A stretch of DNA of 40,478 nt, taken from contig MGXX01000003.1 of the NCBI GenBank assembly GCA_001801515.1, forward strand, positions 1-40,478. Direction: 5' to 3'. Below are positions 21,611-34,844 of the stretch, in pieces. A model generated the notes under the pieces. It ran no database searches and had not been told where the DNA came from. It worked only from the letters and a program-made list of their open reading frames with translations. The translations under genes were made by a program, and so were the position numbers. This DNA is from Gammaproteobacteria bacterium RIFCSPHIGHO2_12_FULL_38_11. GTDB lineage: Bacteria > Pseudomonadota > Gammaproteobacteria > Coxiellales > Coxiellaceae. The stretch's first letter is position 1, and every line of letters starts with the position of its first letter.

Positions 21611-21708
21611 ATTATTTCTCCAATAAAAAAAGCAGCATAACAGATGATCACCCCACTCCCTTTTTTTTGAAAAAGAAGCTCTATTTTGCGTCAACAAAAT
21701 CGGGGGGC

Positions 21709-22968: not shown

Positions 22969-25900
22969 TTATTCTAATGCAAGCAACTGCGCATTTCCTC
23001 CTGTCGCTGTCGTATTCACCGTCATTGTGCTTTCACGGCATAAACGCAACAAATAATGCGGTCCCCCTGCTTTCGGACCCGTGCCAGATAATCCACAACC
23101 ACCAAAGGGTTGCACCCCCACAACCGCACCAATCATCGTGCGATTAACGTAAATATTACCTGTTTTAATGCGTTTTTGAATTTCATCAATAGTAGTGCCA
23201 ATTCTGCTTTGTATACCAAAGGTTAACCCATAACCCAAATTATTTATTTGATCTATCACATCATGCAATTCTTTTCGTTTAAAACAAAGCACATGCAATA
23301 TTGGACCAAATACTTCTTTTTGCAAAATAGCTAAATTAGGAATTTCAAATGCAGTTGGTGCGACAAATGTACCATTTTTTGTTTCGGGTGATAAATGCAT
23401 TTGCGCAATAAACCGTGCGTTTTTATGCATATAATCAATGTGCGCTTCTAATGTATTTTGCGCTGCCGCATCGATTACAGGGCCCACATCAGTTTGCAAA
23501 AAAGCGGTGTTACCCACATCCCAGGTTTGCATCGCACCCTGTAACATTTGAAGAAAATCATCAGCAATGTCATCCTGAACACACACAACGCGCAAAGCAG
23601 AACAGCGCTGCCCCGCACTACCAAAAGCTGAAATCATCACGTCACTGACCACTTGCTCAAGCAGGGCAGAAGAGTCGACAAGCATTGCATTTATACCGCC
23701 TGTTTCCGCTATTAATGGAACAATTGCACCTTTGCGATTGGCTAAGGTTAATTGAATGGTCTTTGCGGTTTCTGTGGAACCCGTAAATAAAACACCATTT
23801 GATCTTTCATCAGCAATTAACGCATTACCCATTTTGCCGCCAGAGCCTGGCATTAATTGTAAAACAGCTTCTGGAACACCAGCTTCATAAAATAATTCAA
23901 CTGCGCGTGCTGCAATTAAAGGTGTTTGTGTCGCTGGTTTTGCAATCACACAATTCCCGGTTACCAAACTCGCTGCCATTTGTCCTGTGAAAATGGCCAA
24001 TGGAAAATTCCAAGGACTAACACAAATTAATGTTCCTAAAGCATGCATGCGCAATACATTGGATTCACCTGTGGGTCCGGGTAAACTCACGTCCGCTAAA
24101 ATTTCACGGGCAATTTTCGCATAATATCGGCAAAAATCGACCGCTTCACGTACTTCAGCAATCGCATCGGGCATGAACTTTCCGGCTTCACGAATTAATA
24201 AAAAAAATAATTCAGCACGATGCATTTCAATTAAGTCCGCTGTTTTCTCCAGTATTTCAGCACGTTTTTCAACGCCTAATTGATCCCATGCAAATTCAGC
24301 TGATTTTGCTTTATCCAATGCAATAGAAACATCAGCCGTTTCTGCCAGTTGAACAAAACCGACAATATCACTTTTATTGTTTGGATTGGTCACTGGTTTT
24401 GCTGCATCTAAATTAAATTTGGCATGCATCGGTGCTGCTTGCCATTGATGCTTTTCAAATACCATTAATTCGTGATCGGCAAAGTGAGATAATTCATCTA
24501 AACGCGTTAAATCAAACCCTCGTGAGTTTTTTCGGGGCGTGAGCACGGACTTTCCATCTGAAAACTTTTCATTTTCAAAAATATCTTTTGGTAATGGAAT
24601 TTTTGGATTAGGAATATGAGTATATGATTGTAATAGTTCAAGCGGGCTCTGCGTTAAAGAATCAACCGTTATTGAATGATTTGCTATTTGATGGACAAAG
24701 GAACTGTTTGCCCCATTTTCTAATAGGCGACGAACCAAATAAGGCAATAAATCTTGATGCTGTCCAACAGGCGCATAAACCCGACTGGCAGCAGCGTATT
24801 TTTTTGAAGTGATCAACACATTATGAAGTGGCTTTCCCATGCCCTGAAGACTTTGAAACTCAAAAGCCCTATTTTTGTCACGCGTCATCCATAAAATAGC
24901 AGCGATAGTGTAAGCATTATGTGTTGCAAATTGTGGATAAATTGTCTCTTGCGCAGACAATAATAATTGCGAACAGGCTAAATAACTAATGTCAGTTGAT
25001 ACTTTACGCGTAAAAACAGGGTAATTTTTAAATCCCCCCACTTGTGCAATTTTAATTTCAGTGTCCCAATAAGCGCCTTTTACCAATCGAACACACATTT
25101 TTTTATGATGCTTTTTAGCAAGTGCTATTAAATATTCTAAAACCGAATAAGCGCGTTTCTGATACGCTTGTACCGCTAAACCCAATCCATCCCAGTTTGC
25201 AAATTCTGGATCGGTAAAAACCGCCTCAAAAATATCGAGCGAAATATCCAAACGATGCGCTTCTTCAGCATCAACCGTTATATAAACACCTACATTTTTT
25301 GCCTGTATTGCAAGCATTTTTAATCGCTTAATTAAAAATGGCACAACCGTTTCTTGTTTGGCAAATTCGTAGCGCGGATGTAGTGCAGATAGTTTGATTG
25401 AAATAGAGGGGGATAAGAAACCTGTCGATACAGTCGGTACTTCACCCATTACTTTAATGGCATTTTGATACGCCATAAAATAATGCTCAGCCTGTGCTTG
25501 CGTTCTCGCCATTTCACCTAACATATCAAAGGAAAATAAATAGCCTTTTTTTGCAAGTGGTTTTGCATTTTTTAATGCTTCGTCAATAGTGCGCCCTAAC
25601 ACAAAATGTTCACTCATGATTTTCATTGAGCGCCTAACTGCTTCACGAATCATGGGTTCACCACAGCGACTGACCAATCCGTACCAACATTTTTTGAATA
25701 TATTTGCGTTAGATTGATCAGCTAATACAGAAGAACCCAAAGACAAACTGCGCGTGGTTAAATTAACAAAGGTAGATTCACTGGCGCCAATATGTTTTTC
25801 CCAATCGCCCGCTGTCAGTTTGTCTTTAATCAGCAGGTCTTCTGTTTCTTTGTCGGGGATTCGTAATAATGCTTCAGCCAAGCACATTAATACCGTGCCT

Positions 25901-29323: not shown

Positions 29324-29779
29324 TCAACGACGAGATTTAAAAAAAGCTTTAAGAACGACAGCACATTCAGCAGATAAAATATTGCCCGTCCATTTGATAA
29401 TATGATTAAACCGCTGATCATCAAGCAATTGAAAAACACTCTTAATTGCACCCGCTTTTGGGTCAAAAGCACCAAATACCAAGCGCTCTATACGCGCATG
29501 AATCATTGCACCCACACACATCACACAGGGCTCTAATGTCACATACAATGTTGTATTGCTTAATCGATAATTATTTAATTTTTTGGCAGCATTGCGCAAA
29601 CAGATTATTTCTGCATGTGAAGTCGGATCATTGAGTTGAATAGGTTGATTCCAACCCTCTGCAATAATCGTATTGTTTTTAACAATAACAGCACCAACAG
29701 GCACTTCACCCTCAAATTCAGCTTTCTTAGCAAGCATTAACGCATGCTGCATAAATGGTTCGTCAGTGTTTGGGGGCAT
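29324..29779 (-). CDS. tadA: tRNA-specific adenosine deaminase
   Basis: TadA converts A34 of tRNA-Arg(ACG) to inosine; the substrate tRNA gene is in this window at 285-361. The 151-residue protein has the zinc site HAE (in PTSHAEIICLRNA) and PCVMC (in LEPCVMCVGAMIHARI), with proton-shuttle Glu in HAE. GEVPVGAVIV and VFGAFDPKAGAI are family strings. I choose the ATG at 29779, which overlaps the coiled-coil stop by 17 bases; an internal ATG (MQHALML) is possible. It is sandwiched between the two coiled-coil paralogues. Confidence 0.96.
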   Translation of the reverse strand: MPPNTDEPFMQHALMLAKKAEFEGEVPVGAVIVKNNTIIAEGWNQPIQLNDPTSHAEIICLRNAAKKLNNYRLSNTTLYVTLEPCVMCVGAMIHARIERLVFGAFDPKAGAIKSVFQLLDDQRFNHIIKWTGNILSAECAVVLKAFFKSRR

Positions 29780-31568
29780 TGACGTGGCCCTGATCAATAA
29801 TAGCAGGAAACAATTGTTCTATATTTTTCATAAAGTGACTTGCCTTTACAGGCAAAGCACATCTGATTTCTAACGACAAATAATCACGATCAGCAGTCAT
29901 CTCTAAAAATTTATTTTTAAAATCATTTAAATTTTTCCGAAATGGCGCATCAATAATAAAACTAGGCTCATGAATTACTTTTAAAGCCATGTCATTAATT
30001 ATTTTTTCAATCATTTCCTTTAACTCTGTTAAACGTAAAGGTAAGGCAAAATCAAATGACTTGATTATTAAGTTCGTCAAAAAAACATAAACATTCATCA
30101 GCAGTTTTTTGATATTCATCAACTGCTCATCCAATCGACCATGAAAAATAGGGCATTTATCTAAATTACGTTCAGTTAATAATTCCAGTATTTTAACCAT
30201 GTTTATAGCAATATGTGAATGATAATCATATTCCGGGAGAGTTGATGCATTCAAAGAAAAATAGTTTACTCTTCTCCTCTTTATATCATGGGCAAACACA
30301 TGCAAAAACACCACCGCCATAAACTGGTTATCCTTTTCTTTGATAGTATTGAGCGCATCAAACAACTGTTTTAATTCAAAGCCTGATAAACGGTTTTCTG
30401 AAAAGGCATCATCACACAGTTTTTCCACCATAAAATCAATTGTTTTAGCGAAAAATACAGGTACCTCAAACAAGCTTCTATATCTCTCTATTCCCTTTTT
30501 AATGGCATTTGCATGATCTGGAATACGCACATTTCTTGCAGGCGTAAATAGGCCAGCATTCACTTGCGCTTCTGCAAGTATTTTTTCAAATTCATCTTCT
30601 TTTACTTGTCTTTTATTTTTTTTTGCAGGCTTTATTGTTACTGCCTTAGCTTCAGGCAGCTTTTCAACAAGTGTGGACATTTTTTTGATTTCTTTAGCAG
30701 CCAATTTTGCAGCACGCGCATTAGCAATTCTTTCAGCTTCTAATTTGTCTGCACGTTCTTTCTCCATTTTTTTTTCAGCAGCCCTTTTCTCTTTTAGGTC
30801 ATACTCATCAGCAATTTTTATCGCTCGGTCAAGCACGCTTTGTGCTTTCGCTTCTTCAGCAGCGCGTTTTTTTTCTTCATTTGCCAATCTTAATTCCTTT
30901 GCCTTAATCTCTGCTAACCTTAATTGTTCATCAGCTTCTTTTTTTGCCTGGTTTGCTAATCTTATTTTTTCAGCCTCTTCTCTAACAGCCAGATTACGGG
31001 CATCTTCTTTAATACCTGCATCCAATTTTGATTTTTCAACCGCTAATTGTTTTTCTTTTTCTTCTAATGCTAATTCCTTTGTAGTCAGTTCTGATTGTTT
31101 TATATCAAGTTCATTAGAAATAACTTCAAGGTCATTTTTTTGCTTTTCAAGATTATCGCAGACCACTTTTAATTGTTCTTCCAAATTTACTTTCTGTTTT
31201 TCAGAAGCATGCGCTAAATCGGCAGCTAATTTGAAATGTAATGCATTGGCATTTTTAAAAAGAATTTGCGTAGTGCGCAGTTTTGATTTTAATTCCTCGA
31301 TAGTTTGGCGATCACCAAAGAGACCCACTTGCACAACCGGTATCGTTGAATATGAGAGTAAGGGTGGCGGTGGCGCGAAAACAGCATGCGTATTATCGGA
31401 CGGCTGCGGATTTGCTTGTGATGCTATTATAATCGGCGACAGTTCTACAGGACTTCGCTCCAAAGGGGGATAAGGATTGTGCGTACGAAATAAAACAGTT
31501 GAAGGCACGCGCTCAGAGGATACGGCAGCTGAATTATCTGGACTTGTACCTGAATTGCAACGACTCAT
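29763..31568 (-). CDS. Coiled-coil protein of unknown function (paralogue of 26796-29282)
   Basis: The 601-residue product has a Ser/Pro-rich start, a PPPPLLSYSTIPVVQVGL stretch, the block LKSKLRTTQILFKNANALH, a Lys/Glu/Ala heptad region (roughly 110-320) and a helical C-terminal domain. The order of parts equals that of the 828-residue neighbour, but this copy lacks about 200 residues in the middle. It has no signal peptide, membrane helix or recognised domain. The ATG at 31568 has an AAGAGGTG site. Its end overlaps tadA, which suggests the two are translated together. The duplication flanking tadA points to a tandem duplication in which tadA was trapped or conserved. Confidence 0.85.
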   Translation of the reverse strand: MSRCNSGTSPDNSAAVSSERVPSTVLFRTHNPYPPLERSPVELSPIIIASQANPQPSDNTHAVFAPPPPLLSYSTIPVVQVGLFGDRQTIEELKSKLRTTQILFKNANALHFKLAADLAHASEKQKVNLEEQLKVVCDNLEKQKNDLEVISNELDIKQSELTTKELALEEKEKQLAVEKSKLDAGIKEDARNLAVREEAEKIRLANQAKKEADEQLRLAEIKAKELRLANEEKKRAAEEAKAQSVLDRAIKIADEYDLKEKRAAEKKMEKERADKLEAERIANARAAKLAAKEIKKMSTLVEKLPEAKAVTIKPAKKNKRQVKEDEFEKILAEAQVNAGLFTPARNVRIPDHANAIKKGIERYRSLFEVPVFFAKTIDFMVEKLCDDAFSENRLSGFELKQLFDALNTIKEKDNQFMAVVFLHVFAHDIKRRRVNYFSLNASTLPEYDYHSHIAINMVKILELLTERNLDKCPIFHGRLDEQLMNIKKLLMNVYVFLTNLIIKSFDFALPLRLTELKEMIEKIINDMALKVIHEPSFIIDAPFRKNLNDFKNKFLEMTADRDYLSLEIRCALPVKASHFMKNIEQLFPAIIDQGHVNAPKH

Positions 31569-31687: not shown

Positions 31688-33361
31688 TCACTCCCACTCA
31701 ATCGTCGATGGTGGCTTTCCAGAAATATCGTACACAACGCGCGATACATGCGGTACTTCATTTAAAATTTTATTACTCACAGCCGCTAAAAAAGCATGCG
31801 GTAATTCAGCCCATTCCGCTGTCATAAAATCAATTGTTTTAACAGCGCGTAACGCAATAACATATTCATAACAGCGCGCGTCACCTTTCACACCCACTGA
31901 CTTTACAGGCAAGAACACGGCAAATGCCTGACTGACTTGATCATATAAATTATATTCACGCAACGCGGAAATAAAAATATCATCCGCCTCTTGTAAAATG
32001 CTTATAAATTCTTTTTTAATTTCACCCAGAATTCGAATGCCTAAACCCACTCCTGGAAATGGATGACGATATACCATTGAGGGCGGTAAACACAGCGCAA
32101 TGCCGAGCGTACGCACTTCATCTTTAAATAGTTCACGTAAAGGCTCAATTAACGCAAAGCGCATATTTTCAGGTAATCCACCCACATTATGATGTGATTT
32201 AATATTATGTGAAGTGCCCGAGGAGGCTTTTCCAGATTCAATCACGTCGGGGTAGATTGTGCCTTGGGCTAAGAATTTAAATCCCCCCGGTTTTGCTGGC
32301 GCAAAACCGACCCCCTTTTTCAAAGGGGGTGAATTGAAAATAGTATCCTGTTTTTCAGAAGGGGGGGGATTAAAAAGAGTATCTCCCATTTCAGAAGATG
32401 CAATTAATTTTTGGGATTCCGTTTCAAAGACATCAATAAATGTTTTCCCAATGATTTTTCTTTTTTCTTCTGGGTCTGTAATATTGCTTAATTTCGATAA
32501 AAATAAAGCCTGTGCATCAACACGAATAACATGAACACCTAAATTATCCGCAAAAACACGCATCACTTGATCACCTTCGTTTTTACGCATTAATCCCGTG
32601 TCAACAAATACACAAGTCAATTGATCGCCAATGGCTTTATGTAATAACGCGGCTAACACAGAAGAATCAACACCACCTGATAAAGCCAACAATACTTTCT
32701 CATTCCCTACTTTTTTTCGAATCGCTTCGATATTTTCAGCAATAATATTTTTGCTCGTCCATTGCGCCTCAACGTGACAAATATTTTTTAAAAAATTATC
32801 TATAATTTTTAAACCATGTTGTGTGTGTGTTACTTCGGGATGAAATTGCACGCCGTAAAATTGTTTTTCTCTGTTAACCATTGCGGAAACAGGCGCATTA
32901 TTTGTTTTTGCAATGATTGTAAAACCAAGCGGAACTTGTGTGACATGATCTCCATGACTCATCCACACATCAATCATTTTTTCAGAAATACCGTGAAATA
33001 ATGGCGTTTTTAAATCAATTTCAGTTTTAGCATAACCAAATTCACGCTTTGCACTTGCTGCGACCACACCACCCAATTGCGCTGCCATCGTTTGCAAACC
33101 ATAACAAATACCCAGCACCGGAATATTTAATTCAAAAATAATAGCGGGTGCGCGCAGTGTATTATTTTCAACAACGGTTTCAGGACCGCCCGATAAAATA
33201 ATACCGCGCGGATTAAAGGCTTTAATTACTTCATCAGAAATACTCGGGTTCATTAATTCGCAATATACGCCGCATTCACGCACACGACGTGCAATTAATT
33301 GGGCGTATTGAGAACCAAAGTCGAGAATTAAAATGCGATGTTTATGAAGATCATTGGTCAT
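31688..33361 (-). CDS. guaA: GMP synthase (glutamine-hydrolysing) with an in-frame insertion
   Basis: GuaA aminates XMP to GMP. The class I glutamine amidotransferase domain has [10 protein letters not shown] (catalytic Cys) and [10 protein letters not shown]. The ATP pyrophosphatase domain starts with the P-loop [11 protein letters not shown], and the dimerisation domain ends [11 protein letters not shown]. The 557-residue length exceeds E. coli GuaA (525). The excess is a segment of about 39 residues near 321-360 with internal repeats ([12 protein letters not shown], then [12 protein letters not shown]), lying just before [13 protein letters not shown]; it is encoded by repeat-like DNA. The frame extends upstream to 33532, but the ATG at 33361 ([13 protein letters not shown]) has a GAAGGG site and matches homologues. 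It starts 10 bases after guaB. Confidence 0.97.
32276..32398. repeat. Palindromic repeat segment inserted in guaA
   Basis: The insert contains a perfect 9-bp stem-loop (CGGTTTTGC with GCAAAACCG, loop TGGC on the + strand), a CCCCCTTTTTCAAAGGGGG hairpin, and two related 36-bp units on the minus strand beginning GATACT. The proline- and glycine-rich peptide it encodes is unlike the rest of GuaA and keeps the reading frame. These are features of a small palindromic element sitting in a gene, similar in kind to the Rickettsia palindromic elements. Confidence 0.8.
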
Positions 33362-33371
33362 AATAACGTCA

Positions 33372-34844
33372 TCACCCTTCTCTCGAATAATTCGGCGCTT
33401 CTTTTGTAATTTGTACATCGTGCACATGGCCCTCACGCATGCCAGCATTCGTAATACGCATAAATTTGGCATGTTTTTGCATGTGCGCAATATCAGGTGA
33501 TCCAACAAATCCCATACAGGAACGCAATCCACCCGTTAATTGATATAAAATATTTCGCAATGAACCTTTATAGGGCACACGACCCTCAATACCTTGAGGA
33601 ACATATTTTTCTACCTCAGCATTTTGATTATCTTGAAAGTAACGATCACTCGAACCAAAAGCTTGTGACATTGCACCCACCGAGCCCATGCCACGATACG
33701 CTTTGTAAGACCTTCCTTGATATAAAATCACCTCACCTGGCGCTTCTTCTGTTCCTGCAAATAGGCCACCAATCATCACGCATGACGCCCCTGCCGCAAT
33801 GGCTTTACACACATCACCTGAAAAACGTATGCCACCATCAGCGACGATTGGGATGTTTTTACCTGCAACCGCTTTCACCACATCGAAAATCGCAGTAATT
33901 TGTGGCACACCGATACCAGCGACAATTCGCGTCGTACAAATGGAACCTGGGCCCATACCCACTTTAATCGCATCCACTCCCGCTTTTGCTAGTGCTATGG
34001 CAGCATCGGCTGTTGCAATATTGCCGCCCATCACTTGTTGTTCTGGATACGTTTTTTTAATCCACGCAATGGTTTCAATTACGCCTTTGGAGTGGCCATG
34101 TGCTGTATCAACGACGATAACATCAACACCTTCTGCAACCAGGGCACAGACACGATCAGCGGTGTCTTTTCCAGTTGTCACCGCTGCGCCCACACGCAAT
34201 TGCCCGCTTTCATTTTTCGTTGCCAAGGGTTTCGTAAGGGATTTTAAAATATCTTTAACGGTATACATACCGCGTAACTCAAATGAATCATTTACAATTA
34301 ATAGCTTTTCAATACGGTGCTGCCGAAATAAATTCATCACCTCTGTGCGCGAAACACCTTCTTTTACAGTAATTAATCGTTCTTTAGGTGTCATCACATC
34401 GGAAACCAATCGATCAAAATTAGTTTCAAAGCGAATATCACGGCTGGTGACAATACCCATTAAATTTTTACCTTGCACCACTGGCATGCCCGAAATATTA
34501 TTTTTATTGGTCAACTCAATTAATTCACGAACACTTGTATTAGAGGTGACAGTAATTGGATCTTTCACCATCCCACTTTCAAATTTTTTAACCTTACGCA
34601 CTTCAAAAGCTTGTTGTTCTATCGACATGTTTTTATGCAAAATACCCATACCCCCCTCTTCTGCTAAACACACAGCCAAGCGATGTTCAGTTACCGTGTC
34701 CATAGCAGCAGATAAAATAGGGATATTTAATTGAATGTTGCGCGTGAGAAACGTAGTAAGTTTTGCGTCTTTGGGGAGAACGTCGGAATATTGGGGAAGC
34801 AAGAGTACGTCATCGAATGTTAATGATTCAGATATAATTTGCAT
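33372..34844 (-). CDS. guaB: Inosine-5'-monophosphate dehydrogenase
   Basis: GuaB oxidises IMP to XMP, the step before GuaA. The 490-residue protein is normal in length: [13 protein letters not shown] at the start, two CBS domains (about 95-205) inserted in the barrel, the catalytic loop GPGSICTTR (Cys near 303), GGIRFSGDV, and the flap [14 protein letters not shown]. The ATG at 34844 has a GAGGTGGG site. It is followed after 10 bases by guaA; guaB-guaA is a classical operon. Confidence 0.98.

Follow-up and report, generated by a model that had tools for sequence, protein, structure and literature searches.

The Rickettsia palindromic elements are repeats of 105-146 or about 150 bp (PMC2229807, PMC10969869, excerpted text). 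According to the excerpted text of a 2024 review, these elements stand out by their unusually high frequency in genes, and similar protein evolution elsewhere is there treated as merely conceivable (PMC10969869). The fusion of a repeat to a gene in frame is already a known kind of event, which the accessible portions of PMC2229807 report for ERIC/IRU, the 107-bp Correia form and YPAL, also in Gammaproteobacteria.

Here we analyzed a 40,478-nt stretch of DNA (the window), whose guaA gene encodes a GMP synthase longer than those of its relatives. We consider it highly probable that a short mobile repeat found in uncultured Coxiellaceae-like bacteria, itself non-autonomous, entered the ATP-pyrophosphatase domain of GuaA, in the loop before the FLAQGT strand. 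Among the titles and abstract openings listed in searches of the open-access literature, a coverage mostly outside subscription journals, there was no account of this repeat.

Results

An in-frame insert in guaA

The features of the window are as follows.

31688-33361, minus strand: guaA, GMP synthase (glutamine-hydrolysing); NCBIfam NF000848, open frame 31688-33532
32276-32404, minus strand: guaA insert of 129 nt (12 nt in genome G007), in frame with guaA throughout; four empty sites compared at the DNA level
32279-32330, plus strand: 52-nt palindromic unit belonging to the dispersed family, antisense to guaA; scored at 44.4 bits by model R1 (E 6.5e-13 for the window)
32288-32309, plus strand: hairpin 1, 9-bp stem with loop TGGC, arms 32288-32296 and 32301-32309; perfect 9-nt arms
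32310-32330, plus strand: hairpin 2, 9-bp stem ACCCCCTTT/AAAGGGGGT with loop TTC, arms 32310-32318 and 32322-32330; perfect 9-nt arms
32316-32397, no strand: 36-nt tandem duplication, about 2 copies; Tandem Repeats Finder
21666-21706, minus strand: possible decayed second copy, just 3' of the stop of a murI-like gene; R1, 8.0 bits, E 0.15, weak

The guaA product, whose start at MTNDLHKH is an assumption, matched NCBIfam NF000848 with 778.6 bits against a cut-off of 400. When the protein was compared by phmmer with the solved GMP synthases 7sbc and 3tqi, the alignment split in two, leaving query residues 377-414 or 377-415 unmatched between QKL and the FLAQGT strand. The size of the insert was taken from G007, the closest genome with whole sequence to compare: its empty site has 12 nt between AAAAATTA and TTCTTAGC where the window has 129 nt, which makes the window guaA 117 nt (39 codons) longer. 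The initial annotation, which had put GuaA at about 39 residues longer at one place, was correct in the length gained, and its end at 32398 has to be moved six bases further, to 32404. The spacing between FIDVFE and GTIYPD is 53 residues in the window GuaA versus 14 in G001, G005, G006 and G007, the genomes parsed by this pattern (it failed on G008, G009, G011, G012 and G014). All nine close genomes are without the guaA insert, with the two aligned halves of GuaA abutting or at most 6 nt apart, so that the insert is not the feature conserved in all close relatives, with no copies elsewhere, that the initial annotation had set out as the contrary case. It is likewise missing from 80 of 80 named relatives, in which just 6 to 8 residues face the 45 query residues 318-362. 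An assembly artefact is less likely because the cluster of proteins identical to the window GuaA (P0002) has five member sequences on three contigs, possibly from one sample. The in-frame guaA insert of the window is confirmed as real. Near guaA, a 601-residue frame at 29763-31568 had no NCBIfam match at E 0.001.

An AlphaFold2 model of the window GuaA had a mean pLDDT of 78.9 and as a whole matches known GMP synthases. Modeling of this kind had been suggested in the initial annotation. In the model the insert region (residues 350-377) comes after helix 316-343 and ahead of strand 380-385, and its pLDDT stays under 50; values below 50 were also obtained for residues 1-18, 390-401, 405-413, 507-512 and 569-576. 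The model suggests that the Pro/Gly-rich insert peptide is probably disordered in GuaA.

Anatomy of the insert and of the repeat unit

The two hairpins that had been read from the extra DNA are present as two pairs of perfect 9-nt arms, side by side and 3' of an unpaired AAATCCCCC leader. The general plan of the unit is the same: over ~43-53 bp, an unpaired AAATCCCCC leader is followed first by a hairpin whose stem varies and then by one, CCCCCTTT/AAAGGGGG, that is more constant. The stem sequence of hairpin 1 differs among copies with compensating changes, whereas hairpin 2 is far more constant. The RNA fold of 32276-32398 reached -48.8 kcal/mol versus -31.9 (sd 3.76) in 200 shuffles (z -4.49, none of the 200 as good), and a search of Rfam with the guaA insert gave 0 matches. 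The tandem of about 36 bp also reported at this place does exist (period 36, 1.9 to 2.2 copies) but is not the repeat family; it is a local duplication, each copy of which takes in one arm of hairpin 2 by sequence layout. Tandems with one hairpin arm were also found in valS (27 bp) and anmK (39 bp), and all these lengths are multiples of three.

Covariation of the stems was assessed in two alignments, with shuffles that retain relatedness among units. In A4 (11 equal-length units), hairpin 1 had 10 cells altered on both sides, a number that none of 500 shuffles reached, and A5 (13 longer units including that of the window, 8 of them distinct) had 3 such cells (5 of 500 as high). The number of pairs with change on both sides was not above shuffles (173 of 500 as high in A4, 51 of 500 in A5), nor were further pair types (500 of 500 in each). 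Sliding the stem partners lowered paired cells and covariation score in both alignments, and exchange of arms among equal-length units gave paired values of 0.767 on average and 0.823 at maximum versus 0.833 observed (0 of 2000 as high). Across 39 units, 27 have five of the six frames free of stops, 10 have four and 2 have three. Five or more open frames occur in 19% of base shuffles and in 5% of 50-mers of the window, compared with 27 of the 39 units; base composition accounts for part of this openness.

Dispersal of the repeat family

The initial annotation had raised the possibility that the insert belongs to a larger family and had suggested a search of relatives with it. A larger family does exist, with the unit dispersed in two related genomes, G001 and G007. 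Blast with the insert yielded 42 matches (E up to 1, best 3.7e-11) in G001, a Coxiellaceae MAG, most of them spanning the unit; matches in G002 and G003 were weak (best E 0.24). A strict pattern of the unit occurred in 5 of 141 relatives (28 in G001, 16 in G007, 2 each in G103 and G140, 1 in G120), and the reversed pattern, used as a control, had 0 matches in all 141. The model R1 was built on 38 units that the pattern had picked out in G001 and G007 (alignment A1), and it was kept sequence-only because RNAalifold gave no base pairs on the gapped alignment. With partial matches counted, R1 found the family in 4 of the 36 genomes of the taxonomic family of G007: 54 matches in G001, 27 in G007, 2 in G005 and 2 in G011, both of the latter covering hairpin 2 only. 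The presence of the family is thus patchy, as 32 of these 36 genomes had no match. On wider sets R1 matched 17 of 187 relatives at E 0.01 and 10 of 369 class-level genomes at E 0.0001 (some shared with the relatives set), with rough E-values and with weak matches outside G001, G005 and G007 often being hairpin 2 only. The single full unit found in G005 lies in aroA (locus L153), its other R1 match covering hairpin 2 only; this unit looks like a remnant preserved inside a protein, the rest of the genome being almost free of the family. In G148, several two-unit copies (L203-L212) lie, by eye, inside an outer palindrome of about GCGGCCT / AGGCCGC, as though the units had landed in, or been lengthened by, another inverted repeat.

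The initial annotation had also predicted copies in other genes of the same genome. Within the 40-kb window, R1 detected no second in-frame unit, the sole other match being the weak, decayed and extragenic copy at 21666-21706 (E 0.15), which follows a gene that we take by eye to be murI. A short stretch at 25027-25039 (TTTAAATCCCCCC) was judged a chance likeness; it sits in a frame reading QVGGFKNYPVF, presumably PutA-like by eye. The strict pattern had 0 matches in IMG/VR. A plasmid search with the guaA site returned, among the 20 of 35 records listed, guaA genes and short unannotated matches, never the whole insert.

No target duplication was detected at 42 two-unit stretches, where exact matches of at least 3 nt averaged 0.76; flanks averaged 0.60 when shuffled, and 23% of the 500 shuffles reached the observed value. 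No transposase for the unit was found. Y1_Tnp is present in 114 of 187 relatives, whether or not they carry the unit. Around eight Y1 genes in seven stretches of G005, G007, G148 and G170, a sample outside which the Y1 gene of G001 falls, no adjoining unit was seen below E 1. A RAYT link finds no support in these data, with Y1_Tnp also in non-carriers and no unit beside the Y1 genes examined.

Recurrence in the GuaA loop

Among the best 120 of 7999 scored GuaA proteins, 111 have the same 29 residues in the loop stretch. The exceptions are the window GuaA with 68 residues, P0003 with 43, P0006 with 39, P0115 with 46, and five proteins with 31 or 32. When compared with translated units of G001, the insert of the window scored 63 (shuffle maximum 43) and the peptides of P0003 and P0006 scored 62 and 65 (shuffle maxima 37 and 35; n=200 in each case), the best unit for P0006 (L110 of G001) having joined the 38 units of A1 after its likeness was seen by eye. 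The insert of P0115 (NVTSRDGLIPREPGMAGG) was rejected as an element, since 109 of 200 shuffles scored as high; it occupies the same loop in a more distant GuaA, is unrelated to the unit and may come from a different repeat family.

These comparisons, made on peptides for P0003 and P0006, favor independent insertions into one tolerated loop of GuaA. A single ancestral guaA insertion, inherited and then decayed, would explain why the window GuaA and P0003 have a common site between KL and FLAQGT, and inheritance does occur in this family, to judge from a left junction that the aroA copies of G005 and G007 have in common (by eye). We regard such a history as rather unlikely, because the peptides PPLKKGV.. 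(window), TSFEKGGRRA.. (P0003) and LKKGVDERSESGG (P0006) fit different frames or stems, with peptides alone compared for the last two, and because the element peptide of P0006 replaces residues further upstream in the loop. The empty loops of P0004 and P0005 and the empty sites of the nine close genomes also speak for repeated independent insertions.

In-frame copies in other genes

Thirty-two of the 103 distinct units in loci L081-L220 lie inside a longer open frame. Counting as insertions those with a recognized protein flanking the unit on both sides, we took 10 of these 32 rows (L089, L091 twice, L140, L153, L182, L186, L187, L193 and L208) and left out 22 (L081, L092, L122, L124 with three rows, L134, L154, L159-L163, L166, L170 with three rows, L171, L181, L196, L204 and L213). 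Four of the left-out loci were put to an annotation search. In L154 and L160, Pfam recognizes protein at a single flank of the unit; L166 has a Pfam HsdM match across the site, but its unit match is hairpin 2 only, in a distant genome; and the L124 rows, whose frames we take by eye to be pilin-like, had no NCBIfam match at E 1e-40.

In-frame copies were found in aroA of G001, G005 and G007, in dnaE of G001, and in pheT, valS and anmK of G007, and a related form of the unit lies in frame in hisF of the more distant G148. Comparison of DnaE, PheT, AnmK and HisF with solved structures gave alignment gaps or breaks at the inserts. In PheT, the spacing between the flanking motifs is 25 residues in G005, G006, G008, G009, G011 and G014 and 20 in G001, versus 40 in G007 (G012 lies outside the parsed set). 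Aligned by eye and anchored on W, pheT of G007 lacks one residue of G005 ahead of the site but has 16 additional codons (48 nt) at the site itself, and it reads as a clean 16-codon insertion. In locus L089 of G001 (117-2924), gcvPA and gcvPB run on as a single frame of 936 residues, a two-unit copy of 78 bp lies where they meet, and the match of the GcvPB model to this frame starts at model position 47; a fusion of the two genes by the element is possible.

The AroA loop between RDHTE and PGD has 31 residues in 64 of the 101 parsed homologues (of 120 listed). In the nearest homologues (P0122-P0160; L182, L091 and L153) its length is mostly 10 to 54 residues, and some of these loops are simple repeats (HTHTHTHT) or element-like peptides. 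As far as sequence comparison goes, the AroA loop itself is altered in this clade. The AroA inserts replace native residues rather than adding beside them, a loss that may predate the insertions because AroA of G008 has a short loop without the element. In comparisons with 200 shuffles each, the AroA peptides of P0147, P0145 and P0130 were like shuffles (28, 11 and 189 as high), that of P0148 was barely distinct (2 as high) and that of P0155 was distinct (0 as high).

Growth of a length-variable GuaA loop by slippage of the 36-bp low-complexity unit, with no mobile element involved, would suit the tandem truly present in the insert, the unrelated insert of P0115 in the same loop and the simple repeats gained by the AroA loop of this clade. 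We consider it very improbable, as the near-constant length of the loop in the GuaA survey means that it is not generally variable, and slippage is already contradicted by the match of the 52-nt unit to dispersed copies in other genomes. Least likely of all, by a little, is that the hairpins serve the host, for example by terminating transcription or by giving the guaA mRNA a regulatory fold: the stable RNA fold and the possible decayed copy of the window, which directly follows a stop codon, are compatible with such a role, against which stand the lack of an Rfam match, the nine close genomes whose guaA is without the insert, and the occurrence of the unit in genes unrelated to one another, in the sense orientation in pheT and aroA and antisense in guaA and hisF.

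Discussion

Entry of a mobile repeat into guaA can be pictured as follows. The source bacterium probably belongs to the Coxiellaceae, to judge from the nearest named GuaA loci and proteins. The unit may depend for its movement on a trans-acting enzyme, with single-stranded hairpins perhaps as the substrate; movement of this kind is proposed, with low confidence, because no target duplication was seen. An insertion whose length is a multiple of three would be readable as a peptide because most units have five stop-free frames, and with a net length divisible by three the guaA insert is predicted to be translated into a Pro/Gly-rich peptide. Insertions that break genes would be removed by selection. 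The 36-nt tandem may have arisen after the insertion, by slippage at the hairpin arm. GuaA would presumably stay active, and the repeat would give the host nothing.

The copies in essential enzymes of related bacteria look like seemingly selfish DNA that has turned into part of proteins, and the family is a gammaproteobacterial one, found in GuaA, AroA, DnaE, PheT, ValS and AnmK of related bacteria. Because close relatives have filled and empty versions of these enzymes, the tolerance, cost and fate of the inserts are directly measurable. The extra peptides should also be flagged in proteins from MAGs, so that annotation and structure prediction do not take them as functional parts.

Among described repeats, QMITE1 and QMITE2 of Coxiella burnetii are alike as MITE-like repeats in Coxiellaceae with about 50 copies each; by the description in the excerpted source they differ from the unit here in size (300-400 bp and 150-190 bp, respectively), in their direct repeats and in the GTAG REP of QMITE2 (PMC5896051). 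No target-site duplication, by which a narrow-sense MITE is recognized, was seen for the unit. REP and REPIN sequences share the short palindromic unit, often in inverted doublets with a spacer, according to the accessible portions of PMC3116915 and PMC3733652; the inverted doublets here are 42 two-unit stretches of 60-186 bp found by pattern, some of which overlap and many of which come from more distant genomes. The GTAG or CGTC tag described for REP and REPIN in the excerpt of PMC3733652 is missing here, and the units here lie inside genes. In the 39 units, GTAG and CGTC each occur 2 times in the 5' stretch, and GTAG 0 times and CGTC once in the 3' stretch. ERIC/IRU, Correia and YPAL are likewise short non-autonomous repeats with open frames fused to genes; compared by their description in the accessible text, they are about 100-200 bp long with one long stem-loop, unlike the unit here (PMC2229807).

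The initial annotation had likened the insert in principle to the Rickettsia palindromic elements, and the likeness has been strengthened by the finding of a dispersed unit that lies in frame in several other housekeeping enzymes. By the descriptions in the excerpted sources, the Rickettsia elements are alike in being a dispersed palindromic repeat between and within genes, in frame in conserved proteins (PMC2229807, PMC10969869). The same descriptions set them apart from the family here, which has its own two-hairpin sequence and gammaproteobacterial carriers; its unit of ~43-53 bp is shorter than the Rickettsia elements and does not fit their 105-150 bp size class, and its two-unit stretches span 60-186 bp. 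We tentatively raise a broader reading, which we hold to be somewhat doubtful: the family may represent one more lineage of protein-coding palindromic elements, unrelated to that of Rickettsia but with a comparable preference for conserved enzymes. Such a lineage would have colonized the same permissive loops repeatedly and independently (perhaps three times in GuaA and several times in AroA) and would be shaped for reading in five of six frames, so surviving in essential genes and even, as in G005, outlasting its intergenic copies.
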